A stretch of 44,793 nucleotides of DNA from an uncultured Asticcacaulis sp. GTDB lineage: Bacteria > Pseudomonadota > Alphaproteobacteria > Caulobacterales > Caulobacteraceae. The stretch's first letter is position 1. Each line of letters opens with the position of its first letter. The stretch lies in assembly GCA_936940865.1 (NCBI GenBank), contig CAKZJB010000222.1, positions 1-44,793 of the forward strand. The letters are read 5' to 3'. This document shows, one piece after another, positions 17,443 to 29,299 of this stretch. The translations under genes were made by a program, and so were the position numbers. The notes under the pieces were generated by a model that was given only the letters and a program-made list of their open reading frames with translations, had not been told where the DNA came from and did no database searches.

Positions 17443-20112
17443 TCAGATGAGATCAGCGATGGCGGCGTCAACCAGCAGGTAGGCGCGGCCCCGATCGTTG
17501 CTCAGCACTTCCTGCAGACCGCGCGCCACGTCCTTCGACATCAGCGCGATATTGATCTGCTGGTCGTAGGCATTGGTGAAGTCGTTGGCCTGCTGGCGCA
17601 GCACGGGGTCAGAGAGCAGGCGGCGGCTCAGGCGGCGGATGGCGGCGGGCGCCACGCGGCGGACCAGATTGCGCGCGCCTTCGTTATCTTCCGACATGAT
17701 GGCGAGAATCGCTTCGTCTATGCGCGAACGGCTGAGGAGGGCGGCGGCGTCGACCCCCATGGCGCTGACCTCGCCGACCATCAGGTCGTCGAGATTGTCG
17801 AAATCGGCATCGGCCGGCGGCTGCGGCACGGGCGTCTGTGCCGGTTGCGGCGCTGCAGCAGCCGGTTGGCCGTTGCTGTCCATGCCGTTCAGCAGGTCGC
17901 GCCACGACCAGCCGGCCGATTCGCCGGCGCGGCTGCCCTGCGGCACAGGACGCTGGGCCGCAGGGGCGGCCGGGCGGCTTTCGGCACTGATCGGCGAGAG
18001 GCGCAGACGAGGCCGTTCGGCCGGCTGTTGCGTCTGGGGCACCGCTTGTGGCGTCGGGGGAACCGGACGCGGCATGGGCGGCGGGGCCGCCACGGCCGGT
18101 CGATTTATGCCTTCGTTGCCCGAAATGACACCCATCAGGCGCACGGCCTCGGTCAGCATGTCGTAGTTGCGGCGCACGCGTTCCTGGAAGGCCTGATCGA
18201 CCGCTTCGGTCTCCAGCGCGGCCTTGCGCGCCGCGGCCGTCATGGCCGACAGGCCGTCCTCGACGGACTTGCGGATGTCGTGCAGGCGGTCCTGCGCCAT
18301 CAGCGGCAACTGGTCGGCGCTGGCCGTCAGTTCGTTGAGCGCCTCGTTGACCTCGGCGATCGTCTGGCGCGTGTGGGCGAAGCTGGCGTCGAGCTTTTCG
18401 GCGGTCTGGTCGCCGGCCTCGATGATCAGGCCGGCCGAATCCTCGATCAGGCGGCGCGCCGCGTTGAAGCGCGCGTCGAAGACCTCGTCGGCCTTCTTGC
18501 TGGCTTCGAAAATGGTTTCGTTAAGGCGATCGACGCGTTGCTGCGCCACCTGCGCGGCCGTATCGGCGGCGCGTTTGGTCTCGGCGGCGGCGTTGATCAG
18601 CTGTTCCAGCGAACGCCGCGTCTCGGCGATAAGGTCGTCGCGGGCGTCCGCGGCCATGACCGAGATGTTCGACAGGGTGGCGTGGATGCGCGTTTCGAAC
18701 GCGGTGCGTTCGTTTTCCGCCGCGGTCATCAGGCCGCGGAAGTTCTCCTGCGCCGACAGCACGATGTCGCGCAGCACGTCGACGCCGCGCGCCGAGGTCT
18801 CGCCAAGGTCGACGGTCGCCACGCGGGTGATGGCCAGGGCCTCGGTCAGCTGGGCGCGCTGGTTTTCGATGTGGACGGCGAAGTCCTCCTGGTCGGCGCG
18901 CAGCGACAGGGCTGCGGATACCAGGCCGGCGCGCTGCTGCGACAAGCCTTCCTCGACGACGCGGATCTGGTCGGCGACGCCTGAGCCGGCGGCCTCCAGG
19001 CGCTGGGTCTGGCGGTCGAGATCCTCGCTGATCCTGCGTGCGGTCGAAGACACGTCGGTCGCCGCGCTCATCATGTCGGACGAGCGCACGGCCAGGGTGG
19101 CCTCGGCTTCGCGCAGTTGCGTCTGGGCCAGGTCCGATGCGTCGGCGATCATCCGCGCCTGGCGGTCCACAGCCTCTATGATGCCGTTCGACTGTTCGCT
19201 GAGCTGAGCGCTCATCTGCTGCACGGCCAGGCGTTCATGCTCGATCGAGCGGGCGACGCTGTTGGTGGTGGCGCGGGCGATCTGGGCGGCGTCGTGAAGG
19301 CGGTCGGTTTCGGCCTTGAGACGTGCCGACAACTCGGCGATGTCGTTATGCGCCAGGCGGACGGCGCGGACGGCATGGTCGACCTGGCTACGCAGGGCGT
19401 CGACCAGTTCGTTGGTCTGCATGGCGGCGGACGCCGCCGGCGCCAGCATGGAATCGGCGAGCGCCGCGGCGCGCGCCGATTGCCGCGACAGGGCGGCGGC
19501 ATTGCGCAGCGCGAAAGCCGAGGCGAAGATCAGGGCGGTCGGGAAAAGCGCCAGGAAGCCCAGCACGATGACGCGCACCGGGGCGGTGGCGAAGGCCGTC
19601 AGGTTGTTCTGCGCCGCCAGCACGAACGCCGTCATGCCGCAGGCCCACAGCAGGCTGACGAAGGTGACCGTGCCCCAGAACACGAAGGGCGATGCGCTCG
19701 TCGCCTTCAACACGCCTTCCGGCTCGACCTTGCGCGGCGCGATGTCGCGTTTGCCCGTCTTTTCCGGGGCGGACGCCGTCTTCTCCCAGCGGGCCGGAGG
19801 GGTCCCGTCGGGCGCCGGCGGCGGCAGGTCGCCGGACCCGGCGGCTTCGGAAATGAAGAACGCATCCTCGGGGCGTTCGAGGTCCGGCGTTGCGGGCGCT
19901 GGGTCAGGTTCGGGAGCGGCCGCGGATTCAGGCGTTTCCTCGACGACTTTTTCAGTCAACGGCGCCTCCAGCAGGTCGTCCGCGGCGGCGGCTTTCGTCA
20001 CGTCTTCGCTTTCCGCTGTGTCCGACGAGGATTCAGGCACATCCACCGCAGCTCTGGACCGGATTCGCGACTTCGTCTCGGACAGGTTCAAAGGGGGGCG
20101 TCGTGTTCTCAT
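17443..20112 (-). CDS. tipN: TipN-like polarity (birth-scar) protein
   Basis: In Caulobacter, TipN marks the new pole, helps place the flagellum and acts in chromosome segregation with ParA. This 889-residue protein fits that architecture: an acidic Pro/Ala-rich cytoplasmic N-terminus (1-140), two membrane helices (about 142-168 and 179-202), a very long Ala/Glu/Gln-rich coiled coil (about 205-660), a Pro/Gln-rich linker (about 670-780) and a helical C-terminal domain. The ATG at 20112 is chosen because GCAGGA precedes it and gives a length almost equal to the roughly 888 residues recalled for Caulobacter TipN; the frame stays open 32 codons further upstream. The identity rests on architecture and length, not alignment. 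Confidence 0.72.
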   Translation of the reverse strand: MRTRRPPLNLSETKSRIRSRAAVDVPESSSDTAESEDVTKAAAADDLLEAPLTEKVVEETPESAAAPEPDPAPATPDLERPEDAFFISEAAGSGDLPPPAPDGTPPARWEKTASAPEKTGKRDIAPRKVEPEGVLKATSASPFVFWGTVTFVSLLWACGMTAFVLAAQNNLTAFATAPVRVIVLGFLALFPTALIFASAFALRNAAALSRQSARAAALADSMLAPAASAAMQTNELVDALRSQVDHAVRAVRLAHNDIAELSARLKAETDRLHDAAQIARATTNSVARSIEHERLAVQQMSAQLSEQSNGIIEAVDRQARMIADASDLAQTQLREAEATLAVRSSDMMSAATDVSSTARRISEDLDRQTQRLEAAGSGVADQIRVVEEGLSQQRAGLVSAALSLRADQEDFAVHIENQRAQLTEALAITRVATVDLGETSARGVDVLRDIVLSAQENFRGLMTAAENERTAFETRIHATLSNISVMAADARDDLIAETRRSLEQLINAAAETKRAADTAAQVAQQRVDRLNETIFEASKKADEVFDARFNAARRLIEDSAGLIIEAGDQTAEKLDASFAHTRQTIAEVNEALNELTASADQLPLMAQDRLHDIRKSVEDGLSAMTAAARKAALETEAVDQAFQERVRRNYDMLTEAVRLMGVISGNEGINRPAVAAPPPMPRPVPPTPQAVPQTQQPAERPRLRLSPISAESRPAAPAAQRPVPQGSRAGESAGWSWRDLLNGMDSNGQPAAAAPQPAQTPVPQPPADADFDNLDDLMVGEVSAMGVDAAALLSRSRIDEAILAIMSEDNEGARNLVRRVAPAAIRRLSRRLLSDPVLRQQANDFTNAYDQQINIALMSKDVARGLQEVLSNDRGRAYLLVDAAIADLI

Positions 20113-20319
20113 ATACGTGTCCTGCAGCCCCTTCGCAGCCGGCCGTGCGGCTGCAGGGAGCGAGTCCAAAAAAGCATCTGTCGGTCCCGCCGGAACGGGT
20201 TCTCCCATCAGGGGAAAGCTAGCCCCAACTTGTCATTTAGGCAAAGGATTTCGTCAAGAACGCCTTTTGCGGCCGGGGACGGACGCGGCATTGCCTGTCC
20301 TTGCACGGATCGAGGCGGA

Positions 20320-20697: not shown

Positions 20698-21687
20698 ATG
20701 TCCGACTATCCGCCGGCCGACAGCACGAGCGGCGTGATCGCATCCCGGTTGAGAGCGGCGGTTGCCGGGCGCGACCGGCCGGTGGTGTTCAGGGGGGCGG
20801 TCACCGACTGGCCGATCGTCGCCGCCGCTGGCCAGGGCACACCGGCCCTGGTCGCCTACCTCAAGGCGCGCGACAGCGGCCGGCCGGTCGAAACCTTCCG
20901 CCAGGCCCCCGACGGTGACGGCAAGTACTTCTACGACGGCGACATGGCGGGATTCAATTTCGCCCGCGCGGCCATTCCTTTGCCGGCCGTGCTCGATCGT
21001 CTGGGACGCCCCGGCTCGGAACCGATCTATGTCCAGTCCGCGCTTCTCAAGGACCATCTGCCGGGCGTTAAGGCCGAAAACCGGTTGCCGGGTGTCGAGG
21101 CCGAGCCGCGTATCTGGATCGGCAATCGTTCGAAGACCCAGATTCACTTCGATCTTTACGACAACCTGGCCTGCATGGTGGCGGGCCGGAAGCGTTTCGT
21201 GCTGTTCCCGCCCGACCAGGTCGGCAACCTCTATATGGGGCCGTTCGAAGCGACGGTGTCGGGTGTGCCCACGTCCATGGCAGACCTGGAAAACCCGGAT
21301 TTCGAAAGGCACCCGCGTTTCGCGGAGGCGCTGAAACACGCCACCATCGCCGACCTCGAACCCGGCGATGTCCTCTATATACCGTACATGTGGTGGCACC
21401 ACGTCGTATCGGACGGGACCTTGAACGCCCAGATCAATTTCTGGTGGGACGAAGGCGGGGCAGGCCTGAGCCAGCCTATCCACGCGCTCTTCCACGCCAT
21501 GCTCAGCCTCCGCGATCTGCCGGCGCACTACAATACCGCATGGAAGACGATGTTCGATCACTTCGTCTTCGGCAGCGCCCGAGGGGAACACCTGCCCCCG
21601 CAAGTCCGCGGCCTGCAAGGCGACCTCAGCGACGAACAGCGCGCCGCGATCCGCAAACAAGTCGGCCGGAACCTTTCCGACGACTGA
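20698..21687 (+). CDS. JmjC/cupin-8-like Fe(II)/2-oxoglutarate oxygenase
   Basis: 329-residue protein with the cupin-8 (JmjC-like) fold, a family whose members hydroxylate proteins or small substrates. The facial triad is visible as His150-x-Asp152 in Gln-Ile-His-Phe-Asp, with a distal His in Trp-Trp-His-His-Val (234-235). The conserved Gly-Arg-Lys-Arg-Phe-Val-Leu-Phe-Pro-Pro strand and Glu-Pro-Gly-Asp-Val-Leu-Tyr-Ile-Pro lie between them. A ribosome-binding site (GGAGG) precedes the ATG. The substrate is unknown. Some family members sit near surface-sugar or TonB-receptor genes; nothing like that is adjacent here. Confidence 0.82.
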   Translation: MSDYPPADSTSGVIASRLRAAVAGRDRPVVFRGAVTDWPIVAAAGQGTPALVAYLKARDSGRPVETFRQAPDGDGKYFYDGDMAGFNFARAAIPLPAVLDRLGRPGSEPIYVQSALLKDHLPGVKAENRLPGVEAEPRIWIGNRSKTQIHFDLYDNLACMVAGRKRFVLFPPDQVGNLYMGPFEATVSGVPTSMADLENPDFERHPRFAEALKHATIADLEPGDVLYIPYMWWHHVVSDGTLNAQINFWWDEGGAGLSQPIHALFHAMLSLRDLPAHYNTAWKTMFDHFVFGSARGEHLPPQVRGLQGDLSDEQRAAIRKQVGRNLSDD

Positions 21688-22245: not shown

Positions 22246-22890
22246 CTATCCCCGATGCCGTTCGCGTAAGGTTTCGAGCACGGCATCGAGCGAGGTCTCG
22301 CGGGCCATCAGCAGCACGGTCAGATGATAGAGCAGGTCGGCGGCTTCGTTATGCAGTTCGTCGAGATCGCCGGCACGGCCGGCCAGCGCTGTTTCCAGGC
22401 CTTCTTCGCCGACCTTCTGCGCGATCTTGGCGATGCCCTTGTGCATCAGGCGGGCGGTGTAGCTGTCGGCCGGATCGGCCTTGGCGCGATCGGCGACGAC
22501 ATTGGCGAGCTCTCCCAGGAAGCCGATGCCCGGCGCGTCCTCGTGGCCGAAGCAGGAGGTCGTCTTGGTGTGGCAGGTCGGACCGGCCGGACGGGCATAG
22601 ACCAGCAGGGCGTCTTCGTCGCAATCTGTCAGGATGCGATCGAGCCTAAGCGAATCGCCCGACGTCTCGCCCTTGGTCCACAAACGGCCTTTCGAACGCG
22701 AAAAAAAGGTCACCAGACCGCTGTCGAGCGTCCTGGTCAGGGCCTCGGCGTTCATATAGCCGAGCATCAGCACCTGCAGCGTGTCGGCGTGCTGCACGAT
22801 GGCCGGCACGAGACCGCCGTCCTTGTTGAAGTCGATCCGCGCCACGTCGTTGAGCGTAAGCGGGTTCGGGATGTGGTGCGCTTCGGGCAT
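22246..22890 (-). CDS. hisIE: Bifunctional phosphoribosyl-AMP cyclohydrolase / phosphoribosyl-ATP diphosphatase
   Basis: Catalyses steps 2 and 3 of histidine synthesis. The 214 residues combine an N-terminal HisI domain (about 1-115: Gly-Tyr-Met-Asn-x-Glu-Ala, Phe-Phe-Ser-Arg, Leu-Trp-x-Lys-Gly-Glu-Thr-Ser-Gly, then metal-binding cysteines in Asp-Cys-Asp and Gly-Pro-Thr-Cys-His plus Ser-Cys-Phe) and a C-terminal HisE domain (Lys-Val-Gly-Glu-Glu-Gly-x-Glu-Thr, Asn-Glu-Ala-x-Asp-Leu-x-Tyr-His). This fused form is the enteric arrangement; many Alphaproteobacteria keep hisI and hisE apart. The ATG at 22890 is chosen from homology; the upstream open frame runs through a repeat. Last gene of the his operon. 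Confidence 0.93.
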   Translation of the reverse strand: MPEAHHIPNPLTLNDVARIDFNKDGGLVPAIVQHADTLQVLMLGYMNAEALTRTLDSGLVTFFSRSKGRLWTKGETSGDSLRLDRILTDCDEDALLVYARPAGPTCHTKTTSCFGHEDAPGIGFLGELANVVADRAKADPADSYTARLMHKGIAKIAQKVGEEGLETALAGRAGDLDELHNEAADLLYHLTVLLMARETSLDAVLETLRERHRG

Positions 22891-22910
22891 GGTCGTGTGC
22901 CTTGTGAAAG

Positions 22911-23047
22911 ACCCCTCCACCGCTTCCTTGCGCGGCAAGCGCAATTCGCTTGCTTCGCTCACCCCCTCCCCACGCTGTGCGTAGGGAGGAGATGTCTTCT
23001 CCTCTCCATCTTTGATGGGGAAGGGGACCGCGAAGCGGTGGAGGGGT
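22911..23047. repeat. Dispersed palindromic repeat, copy A, between hisF and hisIE
   Basis: Perfect 16-bp inverted arms, ACCCCTCCACCGCTTC at 22911-22926 and its complement at 23032-23047, bracket C/T-rich then G-rich sequence. Its right half (22996-23047) resembles copy B at 28001-28051 between hisD and hisG, both following CTCCTCYCCATNNTTGATGGGG then GTGGAGGGGT. The GTGGAGGGGT-type ending recalls repeats common in Caulobacteraceae genomes (from memory). It lies inside the transcribed operon, 20 bp from the hisIE start. Confidence 0.65.
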
Positions 23048-23053
23048 ATCTTG

Positions 23054-23821
23054 CTATAATCGGATCGAAATTCCGTCGGCCTTGAGCTGCTGCTTGAGGT
23101 CGGGGATGGCGATGATCTTCTTGTGGAATACACTGGCGGCCAGTGCGCCGGAAACGTCTGCCTCGACGAAGGCGTCGCGGAAGTGTTCGGGCGCACCCGC
23201 GCCGCCGGACGCGACGAGCGGGATGTGCAAAAGGTCGCGCACAAGCTTGAGCTGCTTGAGGTCGTAGCCCTTGCGCACGCCGTCCTGGTTCATGCAGTTG
23301 AGCACGATTTCACCCGCGCCGCGCTTTTGCGCTTCGACCACCCAGTCGAGCGTGCGACGGCCGGCCTGGCGGATCTTGTCGGGATCGCCGGAATACTGAT
23401 GGACGTAGTAGTCGTTGTCCATCTCGCGCGAGTCGATACCCACCACGACGCACTGCGAGCCGGCCATCTCCGCCAGTTCGTCGATCAGGTCCGGGCGTTC
23501 CAGCGCGGGAGAATTGATCGACACCTTGTCGGCGCCGGAATCGAGGCAGCGCACTGCCTGTTCGGCCGTCCGCAGGCCACCGGCGACGCAGAAGGGGATG
23601 TCGAGCGCGCGCGCGATGTCGCGCACCCAGTTGTAGTCGACCGTGCGGCCTTCCGACGAAGCCGTAATGTCGTACAGCACAAGCTCGTCGGCGCCTTCGT
23701 CGCGGTAGCGCAGCGCCAGGTCCACGGCGTCGCCCAGAACTTCGTGGCCTACGAACTGCACGCCTTTGACGACCTTGCCGTCCTTGACGTCGAGGCAGGG
23801 GATGATGCGTCTAGCCAACAT
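23054..23821 (-). CDS. hisF: Imidazole glycerol phosphate synthase cyclase subunit HisF
   Basis: With HisH forms imidazole glycerol phosphate and AICAR from PRFAR and glutamine-derived ammonia. The 255-residue beta/alpha barrel has the N-terminal Ile-Ile-Pro-Cys-Leu-Asp-Val with catalytic Asp, two phosphate-binding Gly-Gly/Gly-Ala regions and the second catalytic Asp in Asn-Gln-Asp-Gly-Val-Arg. The C-terminus (Ala-Ala-Ser-Val-Phe-His-Lys, then a final Ile-Arg) is of the enteric kind. Its start overlaps the end of hisA by 11 bp. Confidence 0.95.
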
Positions 23822-24542
23822 TAATCGCGGCTTTCAAATCGATAAGTCCTTCGTAGATCGCCTTGCCGACGATGGCCCCGTGCACGCCCAGCGCCTTGAG
23901 ATCGTAAAGATCTTCGACCGAACGCACGCCGCCGGATGCCTGAATCTCCAGGTCCGGGCGCTTACGGCGCAGGGCCTGCATCAGCTCCATGTTCGGCCCC
24001 ATCAGCATCCCGTCGCGCGACACGTCGGTGACCAGGATACGCTGTGCGGTGCCTGCCGGATAGTAGTCGAGCACATCCCACAGCGAGATGCCCGAACCTT
24101 CGACCCAGCCGTGGAGGGCCGCGTCGAAATCGCCGTCCCTGGTCGGAATGACGTCGAGCGCCAGCGTGATGCGGTCCTTGCCGAAGTCCTTCAGCCAGCC
24201 GCGCACCTCCTCCGGGTTTTTCACCGCCGCCGAGCCGACGACGACGGCCGAGACACCGGCGTCGAGCAGGGTCTGGACGTGCTCGCGTGAGCGCACGCCG
24301 CCGCCTGTCTGGATTTTCGCTCTGGACGCCGCGGCCAGGCGGCCGATCAGTTCGTGCTGCTGTGGCGAGCCGGCCTTGGCGCCGTCGAGATCGACGATGT
24401 GCACCCATTCGGCATGCTCTTCGTTGAACAGGTTGAGGCGCTTGAACGGATCGGAATCGTAGCGCGTTACGGCGTCGAAACGGCCCTGCGCCAGGCGAAC
24501 GCATTCGCCGTTGATCAGGTCTATGGCGGGGTACAGGATCAT
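23811..24542 (-). CDS. hisA: ProFAR isomerase HisA
   Basis: Isomerises the aminoaldose ProFAR to the ketose PRFAR. The 243-residue barrel starts with [11 protein letters not shown], holding the first catalytic Asp. It continues with Gln-Thr-Gly-Gly-Gly-Val-Arg, the second catalytic Asp in Val-Thr-Asp-Val-Ser-Arg-Asp-Gly, and Ala-Ser-Gly-Gly-Val. It lies between hisH (1 bp gap) and hisF (11 bp overlap). Confidence 0.95.
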
Positions 24543-24543
24543 A

Positions 24544-25131
24544 TCAAAGCTCTACGAAATTCTTCAGGATCTGCGCGCCGGCGGCGCTCGATCGCTCGGG
24601 GTGGAACTGGCAGCCCCAGACATTGTCCTTACGCACCATGGCGGCGAAAGGGTGGCCATAGGTGGCGGTGGTCAAGGTATATTTGTTCGCCGGGCACACA
24701 TAGGAGTGGACGAAATAGGCGAAGTCGCCGTCCTTCAGGCCTGCGTTCAGCGGGTCTTGCGTTTTGATTTCCAGCTGGTTCCAGCCCATGTGCGGCACGA
24801 CCAGTTCGCGGCTGGCCTCGATCCGCGTCACCTCGCCGGGGATCAGGCCCAGGCATTCGACATCGCCCTCGGTCGAGCGGTCGAACAGCAGTTGCTGGCC
24901 GAGGCAGACGCCCATCAAGGGCACGTCAAGCCCCCGGATGATGTCGTAAAGACCCAGTTCGTGGATGCGGCTCATGGCGAAGCCGGCGGCGCCGACGCCC
25001 GGCAGGATGACCTTCCTGGCGCCCTTGATCTCGGCCTGGTCGGACGACAGTTTCGCCTCGGCGCCCAGACGGTCGAGCGCGAACAGCACCGACGCCGTGT
25101 TGGCGCACCCAAGTTCTATAACAGTAATCAT
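24544..25131 (-). CDS. hisH: Imidazole glycerol phosphate synthase glutaminase subunit HisH
   Basis: Class I glutamine amidotransferase that supplies ammonia to HisF. The 195 residues carry the nucleophile in Gly-Val-Cys-Leu-Gly-Gln-Gln and the His/Glu pair in Phe-His-Pro-Glu-Arg-Ser-Ser-Ala-Ala-Gly, with the oxyanion-strand motif Pro-His-Met-Gly-Trp-Asn. The N-terminus Gly-Cys-Ala-Asn and the ending Leu-Lys-Asn-Phe-Val-Glu-Leu resemble enteric HisH. It follows the hisC-like/hisB fusion by 34 bp. Confidence 0.94.
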   Translation of the reverse strand: MITVIELGCANTASVLFALDRLGAEAKLSSDQAEIKGARKVILPGVGAAGFAMSRIHELGLYDIIRGLDVPLMGVCLGQQLLFDRSTEGDVECLGLIPGEVTRIEASRELVVPHMGWNQLEIKTQDPLNAGLKDGDFAYFVHSYVCPANKYTLTTATYGHPFAAMVRKDNVWGCQFHPERSSAAGAQILKNFVEL

Positions 25132-25165: not shown

Positions 25166-26650
25166 TCACGCGAGCATTCCTTTGGTAGACGGCAGGGCGT
25201 CGCCTTCGATACGCGTCGCCTGGCGCAGCGCCCGGCCCAGCGCCTTGAAGCAGGCCTCGGTCTTGTGGTGGTCGTTGCCGCCCTCGACCTCGACATGGAT
25301 CGATGCGCCCAACGTCTCCGACAGCGAGCGGAAGGCGTGCGCCGTCATCTCGGTCTGGTAGTCGCCGATATGCGTCGTTTCGAACGTGCCTTTGAAGACG
25401 CAGAAGGGGCGGCCGCCGAGATCGATCGACACCTTGGCCTCGGTCTCGTCCATCGGCAGCACGAAGCCGAAGCGCGCCATACCGACGCGGTCGCCCAGCG
25501 CGATCTTCAGCGCCTGACCGAAGGCCAGCATGCAGTCCTCGACCGTGTGGTGGCCGTCGATGTGCAGGTCGCCTTCGCAGGCCAGTTGCAGCGAAAAACC
25601 GCCGTGGGTCGCCACCTGGTCCAGCATGTGATCGAAGAAGCCGATGCCGGTATTGACCTTGACCGGCTTGGGATCGTCGAGATTGACCAGGACCGAGATG
25701 CGCGTCTCCTTGGTGTCGCGCAGGATTTCGCCGGTGCGCGGCGCCTTTTCGGTCGCCGGAACGTCCAGCGCCTTGAGGATGCGGTTGTTGGTCGCCGCGT
25801 CACCCAGCGCCAGCAGCAGGCCGTTGGGCGTATTCTGCGCCGACAGGCCCATCTTCTTCAACGCCGTCTGGGTCTTGAGCAGATTGACCGGGCGCAGCAG
25901 CATGAAGGGGCCGTCGTTGAGATCGAAGCCTTCGAGTTGCGCGGAACGCGACAGGGCCGCGCGCACGCGCGCCTGCTCGGCCCGGATCAGGTCTATGCGC
26001 GCCTGGACGCTCAAGGCCCGCGACGGCGACAGTGACGCTTCGGCGGCGCGGACCGACGGCGTTGGGATAGGGTGCGGCTCGCAGTATTTCAGCAGGCCCT
26101 GCAACGTCTTGGTGTTGGCGATCAATGCACCGACGCGCGCGCCGGCCATGCCGAACAGGTAGGACAGGCTCTTCAGCACCACGACGTTAGGCTCGGCGAC
26201 GGCCAGTTCGACCAGCGAAGCGGCGGTCGACGCATCGAAATAGCTTTCGTCGATCACCAGGATCGAGGGGAAGATTTCGACGGCCAGCGTTCGCGCCGCG
26301 ACGAGGTCGAGCGCCTTGCCGTCGCGCTGGCTGGGATTGTGCGTCAGGTAGAAGCCGCCGCCCTTCGAAATCGGACCCGACTGGGGCGGCTGGCGTACGG
26401 TCAGGTTATAGACGGCGCACAGGTCTTCCAGATAGTGATCCGCGCCCGCCCAGACGAATTCGTGGCCGTGGACACGCAGGCGCCGCATCAGGACTTCCAT
26501 GGCGTGCGACGCGCCGCGCGTCACCATCAGCTGATGCGCCTCGACGCCGTAGAATTCGGCCATGCGCTCACGCAACGGCTCGAGCGACGGCGGCAGAGAT
26601 TCCAGGCCCGCGCCGCTGGCGTTCAGGGATGTGAAGGGCGAATTGAACAT
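25166..26650 (-). CDS. hisB: Fusion of a degenerate HisC-like domain to imidazoleglycerol-phosphate dehydratase (HisB)
   Basis: 494 residues in two parts. Residues 1 to about 297 follow the enteric HisC aminotransferase fold but start roughly 50 residues late. Asp134-Glu-Ser-Tyr137 and Arg172 match HisC. At the position of the PLP Schiff-base lysine the protein reads Ser163-Tyr164-Leu-Phe-Gly (codon TAC), and Leu279 stands where HisC has its substrate-carboxylate Arg. The Asn-Glu-Asn/Tyr start motif is also lost. Residues about 305-494 are IGPD, the dehydratase of histidine synthesis, with Gly-Phe-Phe-Asp-His-Met-Leu (337-343) and both Mn-binding motifs, His-His-Thr-Val-Glu-Asp (367-372) and Asp-His-His-Lys-Thr-Glu (460-465). 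The HAD phosphatase domain of enteric HisB is absent. IGPD activity is expected; aminotransferase activity is not. Confidence 0.9.
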   Translation of the reverse strand: MFNSPFTSLNASGAGLESLPPSLEPLRERMAEFYGVEAHQLMVTRGASHAMEVLMRRLRVHGHEFVWAGADHYLEDLCAVYNLTVRQPPQSGPISKGGGFYLTHNPSQRDGKALDLVAARTLAVEIFPSILVIDESYFDASTAASLVELAVAEPNVVVLKSLSYLFGMAGARVGALIANTKTLQGLLKYCEPHPIPTPSVRAAEASLSPSRALSVQARIDLIRAEQARVRAALSRSAQLEGFDLNDGPFMLLRPVNLLKTQTALKKMGLSAQNTPNGLLLALGDAATNNRILKALDVPATEKAPRTGEILRDTKETRISVLVNLDDPKPVKVNTGIGFFDHMLDQVATHGGFSLQLACEGDLHIDGHHTVEDCMLAFGQALKIALGDRVGMARFGFVLPMDETEAKVSIDLGGRPFCVFKGTFETTHIGDYQTEMTAHAFRSLSETLGASIHVEVEGGNDHHKTEACFKALGRALRQATRIEGDALPSTKGMLA

Positions 26651-26684: not shown

Positions 26685-27983
26685 TTAAACTTCGAGACGG
26701 AAATCCGCGGCCAGGGCGTGGGCTTCGAGGCCCTCCAGGCGCGCCAGCCGGGCGGCGGCGGGCGCGATTGTGGCCGCGCCGGCCTTTGTGGCGCGCTGAA
26801 CGACAAAGCTGGTGAGGAAGGAGCGCACGGTGATGCCGTCCCACGCCTTGGCGGCGCCGTCGGTCGGCAGGACGTGGCTGGGACCGGCCGCATAGTCGCC
26901 GAAGGTTTCGGCGGCGTAGGTCCCGGCGAAGATGGTGCCGGCGGCGGTCAGGTGCGGGATGATGCCGTCGATGTCCACGACCTGGATCGCCAGGTGTTCG
27001 GGGCCATAGAGGTTCGACACCTCGGCGGCTTCGGCGATCGAGGACACCACGAACAGGCGCGCCTGGTCGAGCGAAGCCCTGGCGATAGCGGCGCGCGGCA
27101 GGCGTTCGACCTGAACGCGGACTTCGGCGGCGATCTTTTCGGCTATGTCGCGCGACAGGGCGACCAGGATGACCTGGGCGTCGGCGTCGTGCTCGGCCTG
27201 GCTGAGCAGATCGGCCGCGACCAGCTTTGCGTTGGCCGTGTCGTCGGCGATGACCAGCAGTTCCGACGGCCCGGCCGGCATGTCGATGGCCAGGCCGGAC
27301 ACGCGCTCGGTGGCGTAACGCTTGGCCTCGGCGACGTACTTGTTGCCCGGGCCGAAAATCTTGTCGGCGGCCGGAATGCCTTCGAGCACGCCCAGCGCCA
27401 GGGCGGCAATGCCGTGCGCCCCGCCGACGCGCCATACGGTGTCGAGGCCCGAGGCAGCGCCTGCGGCGATCATCATCGGGTGGATGGAGCCGTCCGTGGC
27501 CGGCGGCGTGATGCAGACGCGGTTCTTCACGCCCGCGACAAGGGCCGGCACCGCCGTCATGATCAGGGTCGAGAACAGCGGCGCCGTGCCGCCCGGGGCA
27601 TAGAGGCCTGCCGTGGTCAGCGGACGATAGACGCGCTGCAGGCTCAGGCCCGGCTTGGGCGCGATGACGGGGCCGTCACCCGGCAATTCGGCGGCCTGGA
27701 AAGCGCGGACGTTTTCGACCGCCAGTTCCATGGCGGACAGGTCGTCCGCGGTCAGCTGCGCGCGCGCGGCGTCGACCGTCGCGGCGTTGAGGCGCACCGC
27801 GTCGGGCGCGTGGCCGTCGAGCCTGACCGCCCAGTCGCTCAGGGCTTCGAAGCCACGAGCTTCGATATCGTCGAAGATGGTCTTGACGCGCGCGGCGACC
27901 GCCGGATCGCGGCGGTTTTCCGGCCGGCGCAGCGCCGCCGTGCGTTCGGCTGTGCTTAAGTCTTTCCAGACGAAGGTTTTCAT
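26685..27983 (-). CDS. hisD: Histidinol dehydrogenase
   Basis: Zn enzyme that makes the last two NAD-dependent oxidations, L-histidinol to L-histidine. The 432 residues match family length. Visible motifs are Ala-Gly-Leu-Tyr-Ala-Pro-Gly-Gly, Phe-Gly-Pro-Gly-Asn-Lys-Tyr-Val, the Gln and His ligands in Leu-Ser-Gln-Ala-Glu-His-Asp, the catalytic Glu-His in Tyr-Gly-Pro-Glu-His-Leu, and a late His in Leu-Glu-Ala-His. The ATG at 27983 is used; further upstream the frame enters a repeat. The gene ends 34 bp before the hisC-like/hisB fusion, across an unusually AT-rich gap. Confidence 0.95.
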   Translation of the reverse strand: MKTFVWKDLSTAERTAALRRPENRRDPAVAARVKTIFDDIEARGFEALSDWAVRLDGHAPDAVRLNAATVDAARAQLTADDLSAMELAVENVRAFQAAELPGDGPVIAPKPGLSLQRVYRPLTTAGLYAPGGTAPLFSTLIMTAVPALVAGVKNRVCITPPATDGSIHPMMIAAGAASGLDTVWRVGGAHGIAALALGVLEGIPAADKIFGPGNKYVAEAKRYATERVSGLAIDMPAGPSELLVIADDTANAKLVAADLLSQAEHDADAQVILVALSRDIAEKIAAEVRVQVERLPRAAIARASLDQARLFVVSSIAEAAEVSNLYGPEHLAIQVVDIDGIIPHLTAAGTIFAGTYAAETFGDYAAGPSHVLPTDGAAKAWDGITVRSFLTSFVVQRATKAGAATIAPAAARLARLEGLEAHALAADFRLEV

Positions 27984-28000
27984 CGGTGTGTCTACCCCAT

Positions 28001-28051
28001 CTCTCCTCCCCATAATTGATGGGGAGGGGGACCACGAAGTCGTGGAGGGGT
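28001..28051. repeat. Dispersed palindromic repeat, copy B, between hisD and hisG
   Basis: Contains CTCCTCCCC facing GGGGAGG around ATAATTGAT, then ACCACGAAGTCGTGG (a near-perfect small palindrome) and GTGGAGGGGT. Its layout and much of its sequence match 22996-23047 (copy A) in the same orientation. It fills most of the 74-bp hisD-hisG gap. Confidence 0.6.
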
Positions 28052-28057
28052 CCTTTC

Positions 28058-28939
28058 CTACTTCATCATCTTTTCGATCGGCAGCACCAGAATGGCCGAG
28101 GCGCCGGCGGCTTTCAGCTTGTCGAGCGTTTCCCAGAAGACGTTTTCCTGGCAGACGGCGTGGACGGCGACGGTGTCGTCGCGGCCGGCCAGTTGCATGA
28201 TGGTCGGTGCGTCGGCGCCGGGGATCAGCTCGATGATTTCATCCAGGTGCGCCTTGGGGGCATTCAGCATGACATATTTGGCGCCCGTCGAGGCGACGAC
28301 GCCGTCGAAGCGGCGCACGACGATGTCGTAGAGGTGGGCCAACTCGGCGGGCGGGGCGTGCGGCGCCTTGATCAGAACGGCCTCGGACTTGAGCACCAGG
28401 TCGGTGGCGCGCATGCCGTTGGCCTCCAGCGTGGCCCCGGTCGACACCAGGTCGCAGATGGCGTGAGCGATCTTCATGCGCGGGGCGACTTCGACGGCGC
28501 CGCGCATCTCGATGATTTCGGCCTTGACGCCCTTGTCCTTCAACCAGCGCGCCAGGATGTTGGGATACGAGGTTGCGATACGCTTGCCGTCCAGGCTTTG
28601 CGGCCCGTCATAGGCGACGTCGTTCGGCACGGCGATCTTCAGCGTGCAGCCGCCGAAACCCAGGCGCATGACGATCATGCTTTCGATATCGGCGTCGGGA
28701 AAGTGTTCCTGCAAGACGTTCAAGCCGACGATACCCAGTTCGGCGACATTGTCGGCGACGAAGGTCGGGATGTCGTCGTCGCGCACGCGCAGCAGGTCGA
28801 TGGGCTGGTTTTCGATGCGATACAGAAGGTCGTTGATGCCCTTCATGACGCGCAGGCCCGCGCCGGAAATCAGCTCCAGCGAACGGTCGGCCAGACGGCC
28901 CGACTTCTGGACGGCGATACGCAAACGGGGTTCGGTCAT
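28058..28939 (-). CDS. hisG: ATP phosphoribosyltransferase, long form
   Basis: First and feedback-controlled step of histidine synthesis: ATP plus PRPP to phosphoribosyl-ATP. The 293 residues are of the long HisG type with a C-terminal histidine-binding regulatory domain, so no HisZ partner is needed. Motifs include Gln-Lys-Ser-Gly-Arg-Leu, Leu-Arg-Val-Arg-Asp-Asp-Asp-Ile-Pro, the PRPP loop Asp-Leu-Val-Ser-Thr-Gly-Ala-Thr-Leu, and the ending Ser-Ala-Ile-Leu-Val-Leu-Pro-Ile-Glu-Lys-Met. It reads as strongly enteric-like, while many Alphaproteobacteria use short HisG with HisZ. Its start overlaps the upstream regulator gene as ATGA. Confidence 0.95.
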   Translation of the reverse strand: MTEPRLRIAVQKSGRLADRSLELISGAGLRVMKGINDLLYRIENQPIDLLRVRDDDIPTFVADNVAELGIVGLNVLQEHFPDADIESMIVMRLGFGGCTLKIAVPNDVAYDGPQSLDGKRIATSYPNILARWLKDKGVKAEIIEMRGAVEVAPRMKIAHAICDLVSTGATLEANGMRATDLVLKSEAVLIKAPHAPPAELAHLYDIVVRRFDGVVASTGAKYVMLNAPKAHLDEIIELIPGADAPTIMQLAGRDDTVAVHAVCQENVFWETLDKLKAAGASAILVLPIEKMMK

Positions 28940-29241
28940 TGGGAATCTTTCAGTTTATCCAGGACAACCCGGTAGCCTTGATGCGGCATCTCGCGCAGGA
29001 ACCGCGCCACCCGCGTCACCGTCGTCGTCGAGGCGCCGGTGCGGGTGGCGATGTCGCGATAGCTGAGTTGCCCCTCGTCGAGCAGGCGCGCCACCTTGAA
29101 GCGCTCGGCAAAAGCGCGGAGCTCGGCGGGTGTGCACAGGTCGTTGAGGAAGGCCTTGACCTCTGCGGCGCTGTCCAGCGACAGCAGGGCGCGCACAAGC
29201 ACGTCCTGGTCGTCGGCAAGATCCTGAGGAGAAGGCTGCAT
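28936..29241 (-). CDS. TrpR-family (YerC/YecD-like) transcriptional regulator, probable his-operon regulator
   Basis: 101 residues forming the all-helical Trp-repressor fold: Leu-Cys-Thr-Pro-Ala-Glu-Leu-Arg-Ala-Phe-Ala-Glu-Arg and then a helix-turn-helix, Leu-Ser-Tyr-Arg-Asp-Ile-Ala followed by Thr-Gly-Ala-Ser-Thr-Thr-Thr-Val-Thr-Arg-Val-Ala-Arg. It is the first gene of the his operon and overlaps hisG by 4 bp. As I recall, a TrpR-family regulator also heads the his operon in Xanthomonadales. Three 8-bp repeats directly upstream of its start suggest autoregulation by histidine supply. No Shine-Dalgarno precedes the ATG. Confidence 0.88.
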   Translation of the reverse strand: MQPSPQDLADDQDVLVRALLSLDSAAEVKAFLNDLCTPAELRAFAERFKVARLLDEGQLSYRDIATRTGASTTTVTRVARFLREMPHQGYRVVLDKLKDSQ

Positions 29242-29242
29242 C

Positions 29243-29299
29243 TGTGTTACCGTGTTAATGTGTTAGCGTGCTGATACAGTAACACATGTGGCGATGCAA
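29243..29299 (-). promoter_or_regulatory. Candidate his-operon promoter and repeat operator
   Basis: Reading toward the operon, TTGCAT (29294-29299) and TATCAG (29271-29276) are 17 bp apart and could be -35 and -10. Between them and the start codon lie three head-to-tail octamers of form NTAACACR (29243-29250, 29251-29258, 29259-29266). A fourth copy in inverted orientation, TGTGTTAC, occupies 29279-29286 in the spacer. Trp-repressor dimers are known to bind in tandem at 8-bp spacing, so the phasing fits the TrpR-family gene just downstream. Confidence 0.6.

Follow-up and report, generated by a model that had tools for sequence, protein, structure and literature searches.

HisC is a dimer in which Tyr55 reaches into the site of the partner subunit. 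In E. coli, the his genes follow the order hisG-D-C-[NB]-H-A-F-I, and the IGPD (HisB activity) is preceded in the same chain by a histidinol phosphatase of the HAD type (HisNB). Several other his genes are found in fusions; the available text of a review (PMC10138114) names hisD, N, B, H, F, I and E, and hisC is absent from this list. The term "hisC" is also absent from the main text of PMC1963479 according to a term count. Searching the literature for HisC–HisB fusions, we recognised no description in the portions of text that were available; two candidate texts contained operon notation. We refer to the fusion described here as a pseudoenzyme domain joined to IGPD.

A his operon with a HisC-like domain in front of IGPD

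The window, by which we mean the entire 44,793-nucleotide stretch of Asticcacaulis DNA under analysis, contains the operon hisR-hisG-hisD-[psi-hisC/IGPD]-hisH-hisA-hisF-hisIE with every gene on the minus strand. Leaving hisR aside, the gene order matches that of E. coli without HisN. The first gene, hisR (28936–29241), codes for a YerC/YecD regulator of the TrpR family (TIGR02531, 70.5 bits, cut-off 42.2). It precedes hisG (28058–28939; TIGR00070, 175.6 bits; TIGR03455, 101.7 bits) and hisD (26685–28013; TIGR00069, 428 bits), which lies directly upstream of the fusion. On the other side follow hisH (24544–25131; TIGR01855, 210.5 bits), hisA (23811–24542; TIGR00007, 243.2 bits), hisF (23054–23821; TIGR00735, 324.6 bits) and a frame at 22246–23244 that ends with hisIE (NF002747, 259.8 bits), with the domain at frame residues 133–331 and the true start inside the frame. 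A candidate HisR box (29259–29278, no strand assigned) is located 17 bases before hisR and deviates at two positions from the proteobacterial motif in the available part of PMC9413887. With up to three mismatches, this motif matches four times in the window against 0.59 expected, two of these matches being one palindrome read on both strands. According to the same portion of that paper, TrpR-family HisR is the first operon gene in most HisR-bearing Proteobacteria, which include 11 genomes of Rhodobacterales/Caulobacterales. Past the downstream end of the operon, the window codes for a Cupin_8/JmjC-like protein (20698–21687, plus strand) and for a 921-residue frame (17443–20208, minus strand) that appears coiled-coil-like by eye and has no Pfam match at E 1e-5.

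The fusion itself is a single frame of 494 residues (25166–26650, minus strand) with its ATG at 26650 and its stop codon at 25166–25168. It exceeds the Pfam cut-offs for Aminotran_1_2 (residues 102–245, 55.5 bits) and for IGPD (PF00475, residues 334–475, 188.8 bits), and thus agrees with the initial annotation, which had read one frame joining a HisC-like half to an IGPD with intact metal motifs. Since both matches exceed their cut-offs and the frame is open in 24 of the 25 genomes of the genus, the fusion must be more than chance. The IGPD domain (residues 304–494, 25169–25741, minus strand) also passes NF002111 (237.2 bits, cut-off 231). Eight of its residues (His341, His367, His368, Glu371, His438, His461, His462 and Glu465) are invariant in all 71 aligned fusions; we assign them as the metal ligands because of their spacing, compared with the ligands named in the available part of PMC10978614. 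With all metal-binding His and Glu residues in place, this half has the sequence features of an IGPD. The view that the protein is an IGPD with a HisC pseudoenzyme domain in front is well supported at the level of sequence: it looks like a working histidine-pathway enzyme that carries an apparently dead second enzyme at its front.

Probable loss of catalysis and persistence of the HisC half

The pseudo-HisC domain (residues 1–298, 25757–26650, minus strand) is predicted to keep the fold-type I architecture of HisC without the N-terminal arm. The AlphaFold model has a pLDDT of 90.9, a value to be read with the inclination of homologue-guided AlphaFold to draw the parental fold. Against the HisC model TIGR01141 the fusion reaches only 88.6 bits (cut-off 276.55). 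Codons 160–166 read AAG AGC CTG TCC TAC CTG TTC, and in a phmmer alignment of the fusion (SLSYLFGMAGARVG) with E. coli HisC (1fg3, TLSKAFALAGLRCG) Tyr164 (TAC, 26159–26161, minus strand) falls on the Schiff-base residue Lys214. All 24 sequences of the genus have an aromatic residue at this position (Tyr in 11, Phe in 13). Leu279 (CTG, 25814–25816, minus strand) takes the place of the carboxylate-binding Arg335 in the multiple alignment, where the genus has Leu in 15 and Ile in 9 of 24 sequences. Where intact relatives have the (L)DANENP motif, the fusion has its start codon, with Met1 over Ala and Pro5 over Pro; the Asn-Glu-Asn motif and the arm before it are gone. Each of these losses had been claimed by the initial annotation and is borne out. 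It had also named Lys160 as a conceivable Schiff base that would overturn this reading; Lys160 pairs with Arg210 of E. coli HisC, away from the Schiff-base position. What persists of the site includes Asp134 (26249–26251, minus strand; present in 79 of 80 Lys-less fusions), which corresponds to Asp184 of HisC and hence to what we take to be the pyridine-nitrogen aspartate, and Arg172 (26135–26137, minus strand), which corresponds to Arg222 and is present in 23 of 24 fusions of the genus. For annotators, this means that the fusion passes the Pfam aminotransferase cut-off yet lacks the residue needed for usual transamination. The score against the model of the threonine-phosphate decarboxylase CobD, TIGR01140, also stays far below its cut-off (90.4 bits, cut-off 290.55).

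An alignment of 123 fusions to E. coli HisC, tabulated site by site, shows how far this loss extends. Lys214 is present in 43 fusions, all of which keep Y55, D184, Y187, S213, R222 and R335; Asn157 is kept by all of these except L064, which has Ser. The 80 fusions without Lys214 comprise 24/24 of the genus, 41/41 from Brevundimonas-type genomes and 15/58 others. At the position of the lysine, the Brevundimonas-type fusions contain Leu (40) or Met (1), and the 15 others contain Leu (4), Ala (3), Tyr (2), Gln, Met, Ser or Ile (one each) or a gap (2). Asticcacaulis fusions retain D134 (D184) and S163 (S213) in 24/24 sequences, Y137 (Y187) and R172 in 23/24 and Lys160 in 24/24; according to the alignment they lack D85, N157, R335 and Y55. 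Brevundimonas-type fusions have lost Y187 (41/41) and N157 and kept S213 and R222 (41/41 each), R335 (40/41) and Y55 (38/41). R222 is lost in all 15 of the others. One locus (L054, genome G099) codes for a full-length HisC–IGPD in which Ser replaces the Schiff-base lysine, possibly an intermediate or early stage of lysine loss. In a tree of the IGPD domains, Asticcacaulis groups weakly with the Lys-bearing fusions (88/88, unstarred), which suggests that lysine loss may have occurred repeatedly; a single clade is not rejected (AU p 0.337).

The same fusion, sought in relatives, is present in 24 of the 25 genomes of the genus, the remaining genome being 87% complete, and a search across 398 genomes of the order gave matches in 377. 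The four best named loci are from Asticcacaulis, and their HisC halves are 78–87% identical over the best segment. No internal stop interrupts any fused match among the matches listed, contrary to what a stop-ridden HisC half would have required. The IGPDs we examined fall into two groups: some stand alone and have about 200 residues, whereas the others are preceded by another open stretch. The free-standing IGPDs, 30 loci from 42 genomes that were chosen for weak or missing matches, form one clade (support 99). In the clade of the fusion type, none of the 153 tree rows, all gathered by similarity to the window protein, contains a free-standing IGPD. The N-terminal parts found on this type are full HisC with the lysine, Lys-less HisC, a domain of about 200 residues, or HisD. 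The outgroup IGPDs follow HisN (E. coli) or other open stretches. Wherever the start is readable, Lys-less HisC halves are truncated, with the exception of L054, and an alignment of 14 truncated fusions shows one common truncation point. Where at least 400 bases of flank were available, HisC-bearing fusions have hisD upstream in 119/119 loci and hisH downstream in 123/123 loci.

HisD is fused straight to IGPD without a HisC between them in L087, L088, L090 and L162–L164. The domains of about 200 residues in L091–L100, L165 and L278–L284 belong to no known Pfam family and are probably shrunken HisC. In Sphingomonas parva (L215, 1850–5488), HisD, a full Lys-bearing HisC and IGPD share one stop-free frame, a possible triple fusion unless a start lies inside this frame. 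Four Brevundimonas-type genomes (g2; G081, G230, G323 and G374), each listed as 100% complete, have no IGPD match and may for this reason be histidine auxotrophs.

Genomes with a Lys-less fusion usually contain a second HisC. Calling free-standing HisC by TIGR01141 at its curated cut-off of 276.55 bits, we found one in 55 of 57 such genomes, the window's own genome included; of the two exceptions, G291 is 65% complete and G094 scores 275.6 bits. All eight genomes with a remnant or a HisD fusion also contain a free-standing HisC. By contrast, only 6 of 34 genomes with a Lys-bearing fusion do (G111, G014, G035, G203, G223 and G372); the other 28, all from the order, have no HisC over the cut-off besides the fused one. 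The difference (62/64 versus 6/34 with the window left out) corresponds to a Fisher p of 2e-16 with kinship ignored. Lysine loss is thus correlated with a second HisC gene, so that a trigger for the loss can be named, although the order of events is inferred. The six genomes with both a Lys-bearing fusion and a second HisC would fit an intermediate state; one of them, assigned to the Brevundimonas-type genus, combines a full Lys-bearing HisC–IGPD (L145, G111) with a free-standing HisC. In the window's genome, the free-standing HisC (297 bits, motif RTFSK) adjoins a chorismate mutase gene on contig C51, a different contig from that of the fusion. This arrangement differs from that in ten other genomes (G077, G276, G097, G187, G241, G152, G147, G207, G033 and G099), where only a few kb of one contig separate the fusion and the free-standing HisC.

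Purifying selection on the apparently dead half is strong in Asticcacaulis, no weaker than that on live HisC. Pooled over 10 disjoint pairs (20 of 24 sequences), its dN/dS is 0.070 (0.058–0.084), compared with 0.037 (0.025–0.048) for IGPD and 0.090 (0.077–0.107) for live HisC of the same genome pairs; it is lower than that of live HisC in seven of nine comparable pairs. The lowest value along this half, 0.039, belongs to residues 161–200, the former active-site segment. The impression that this open frame is no decaying relic is supported, and with a catalytic residue absent across species the domain behaves as a pseudoenzyme should. The dead half of Brevundimonas-type fusions is clearly relaxed, with a dN/dS of 0.252 (0.231–0.275) versus 0.097 for IGPD in 19 disjoint pairs (38 of 40 sequences). 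Medians over all pairs with dS below 1.5 are higher, at 0.271 for Asticcacaulis (262/276 pairs) and 0.318 for the Brevundimonas type (776/780 pairs), and argue against uniformly strict constraint, with dS near saturation in many pairs or older relaxed phases counted. Invariant positions among the 24 sequences of the genus amount to 97 of 298 in the dead half versus 132 of 191 in IGPD.

Proposed history and role of the dead domain

We propose, with a probability of roughly 55%, that a once-bifunctional HisC–IGPD lost the catalysis of its redundant HisC half and kept this half as a folded module for the folding or assembly of IGPD. Gene order and the tree of IGPDs suggest that a HisC–IGPD fusion without the HisN phosphatase part may have arisen from a compact operon of the gamma type, hisR-G-D-C-[NB]-H-A-F-IE. 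This ancestor would have been bifunctional, since relatives with full HisC, lysine and pocket residues usually have no other HisC. A free-standing HisC would then have taken over transamination, and the fused copy would have lost its N-terminal arm as well as Lys214 and further catalytic residues. The dead domain would have been retained with its predicted fold, in Asticcacaulis under selection no weaker than that on live HisC, and could now stabilise the folding or pairing of IGPD subunits. The N-terminal sheet of plant IGPD is on the outer face of the 24-mer (available text of PMC10978614); by analogy, 24 pseudo-HisC domains would coat the outside of the shell. IGPD might shed them only by shrinking or by a swap for HisD. 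The fusion-type clade is never free-standing in the tree, among rows gathered by similarity to the window protein, and HisC has been shrunk or replaced by HisD instead of being cut off, which suggests dependence on an N-terminal partner. The HisD–IGPD fusions count against a need for the module, in that a fusion-type IGPD can manage without any HisC part.

Selection seems to guard the dead half with about the strictness seen for a live enzyme, which suggests that the half still does a job, but low dN/dS could mirror no more than the avoidance of misfolding in an essential chain. A functionless domain tied to an essential enzyme, with missense changes purged and occasional deletions fixed, is an unlikely alternative, though the most probable among those considered. 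It would account for the repeated shortening of the HisC part from about 280–310 residues to about 200 and then to none, for the relaxed dN/dS of the Brevundimonas type and for the drifting lysine position of the 15 other Lys-less fusions (L, A, Y, Q, M, S, I or a gap). It is harder to reconcile with selection in Asticcacaulis as strong as on live HisC, and with the minimum of dN/dS at the former active site.

A residual PLP/phosphate pocket in Asticcacaulis, formed by Asp134, Tyr137, Ser163, Arg172 and the aromatic residue in place of lysine, might bind histidine, PLP or a phosphate ester of the pathway with no Schiff base involved and make IGPD allosteric, much as HisZ tunes HisG. We regard such ligand sensing as doubtful. 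The near-constancy of these five positions in the genus speaks for it, as do precedents in the available portions of papers on HisZ (PMC9734150) and a TSB-like protein (PMC12727527). According to the available text of PMC10978614, there are no reports of cooperative regulation at the IGPD step; a ligand-sensing dead HisC, if true, would be a control point of IGPD recruited from the enzyme one step downstream. However, the alignment shows Asticcacaulis without Asn157, Asp85, Arg335 and Tyr55, and the domain persists despite the loss of Tyr187 in all Brevundimonas-type and of Arg222 in all 15 other Lys-less fusions. With pocket residues partly lost in these relatives, ligand sensing cannot be the function common to all. 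We infer that a role in structure or assembly accounts for more of the observations.

Docking is less probable still: the dead HisC would pair with live HisC or HisD and place the product-using enzyme beside IGPD. Fusions do unite enzymes of nearby steps (HisC–IGPD and HisD–IGPD), and Tyr55, the residue that reaches across the HisC dimer, is kept in most Brevundimonas-type fusions, but Asticcacaulis has neither Tyr55 nor the N-terminal arm. Residual chemistry, with PLP or PMP held without the lysine or with Tyr164 or Lys160 as a stand-in, is very improbable despite the pocket residues and the constant Lys160, because the Arg210 position of Lys160 holds Arg or Lys in Lys214-bearing fusions as well, 13 of 24 sequences have Phe at 164, and neither Arg335, Asn157 nor the arm remains.

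The loci at this one gene position are a natural series for the possible path by which a bifunctional enzyme gives up one of its functions: Lys-bearing HisC–IGPD, full-length Lys-less, truncated Lys-less, a remnant of about 200 residues, and HisC gone. The window fusion is the best guarded member of this graded series. Asticcacaulis is its odd step, where the catalytic residues are gone yet guarding is as strict as for the living enzyme; with a half both dead and guarded, the purpose of the domain becomes testable by a simple histidine-growth assay.

Comparison with known systems

The dead half resembles HisC (TIGR01141; E. coli 1fg3/1gey) in predicted fold, in gene place between hisD and hisB, and in the Asp-Glu-Ser-Tyr and Ala-Gly-Ala-Arg motifs; it differs by the absence of the Schiff-base lysine, the N-terminal arm and Arg335, and by its score far below the model's cut-off. 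Relative to IGPD/HisB (PF00475; PRK00951 models), the fusion has a complete domain over the cut-off with metal ligands and adds the N-terminal pseudo-HisC. The model of E. coli HisNB (NF003937) scores best for the IGPD half, with 278.5 bits over residues 302–493 only (cut-off 443). Both proteins combine an N-terminal enzyme with IGPD in the same operon order, but the partner in the window is a dead HisC, and the HAD histidinol phosphatase of HisNB is missing. The Lys-bearing HisC–IGPD fusions from other genomes of the order and from Sphingomonas/Sphingosinicella have the same domain order, a homologous IGPD and, where the flank was read, the same operon place; they differ in keeping the lysine.

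Non-catalytic relatives of enzymes are known from other pathways and from histidine synthesis itself. SPTLC1 is an inactive partner with a PLP fold, and HisZ of ATP-phosphoribosyltransferase has the fold of HisRS. Like the dead HisC, HisZ is a relative of an enzyme that histidine synthesis has retained without catalysis; it is a separate subunit with a measured allosteric role (available text of PMC9734150), whereas the dead HisC is fused to IGPD. The plant TSB-like protein (accessible part of PMC12727527) and SPTLC1 are likewise non-catalytic descendants of PLP enzymes kept as partners. Both are separate subunits that act on their own paralogue or partner, in contrast to the dead HisC, which is fused to IGPD.
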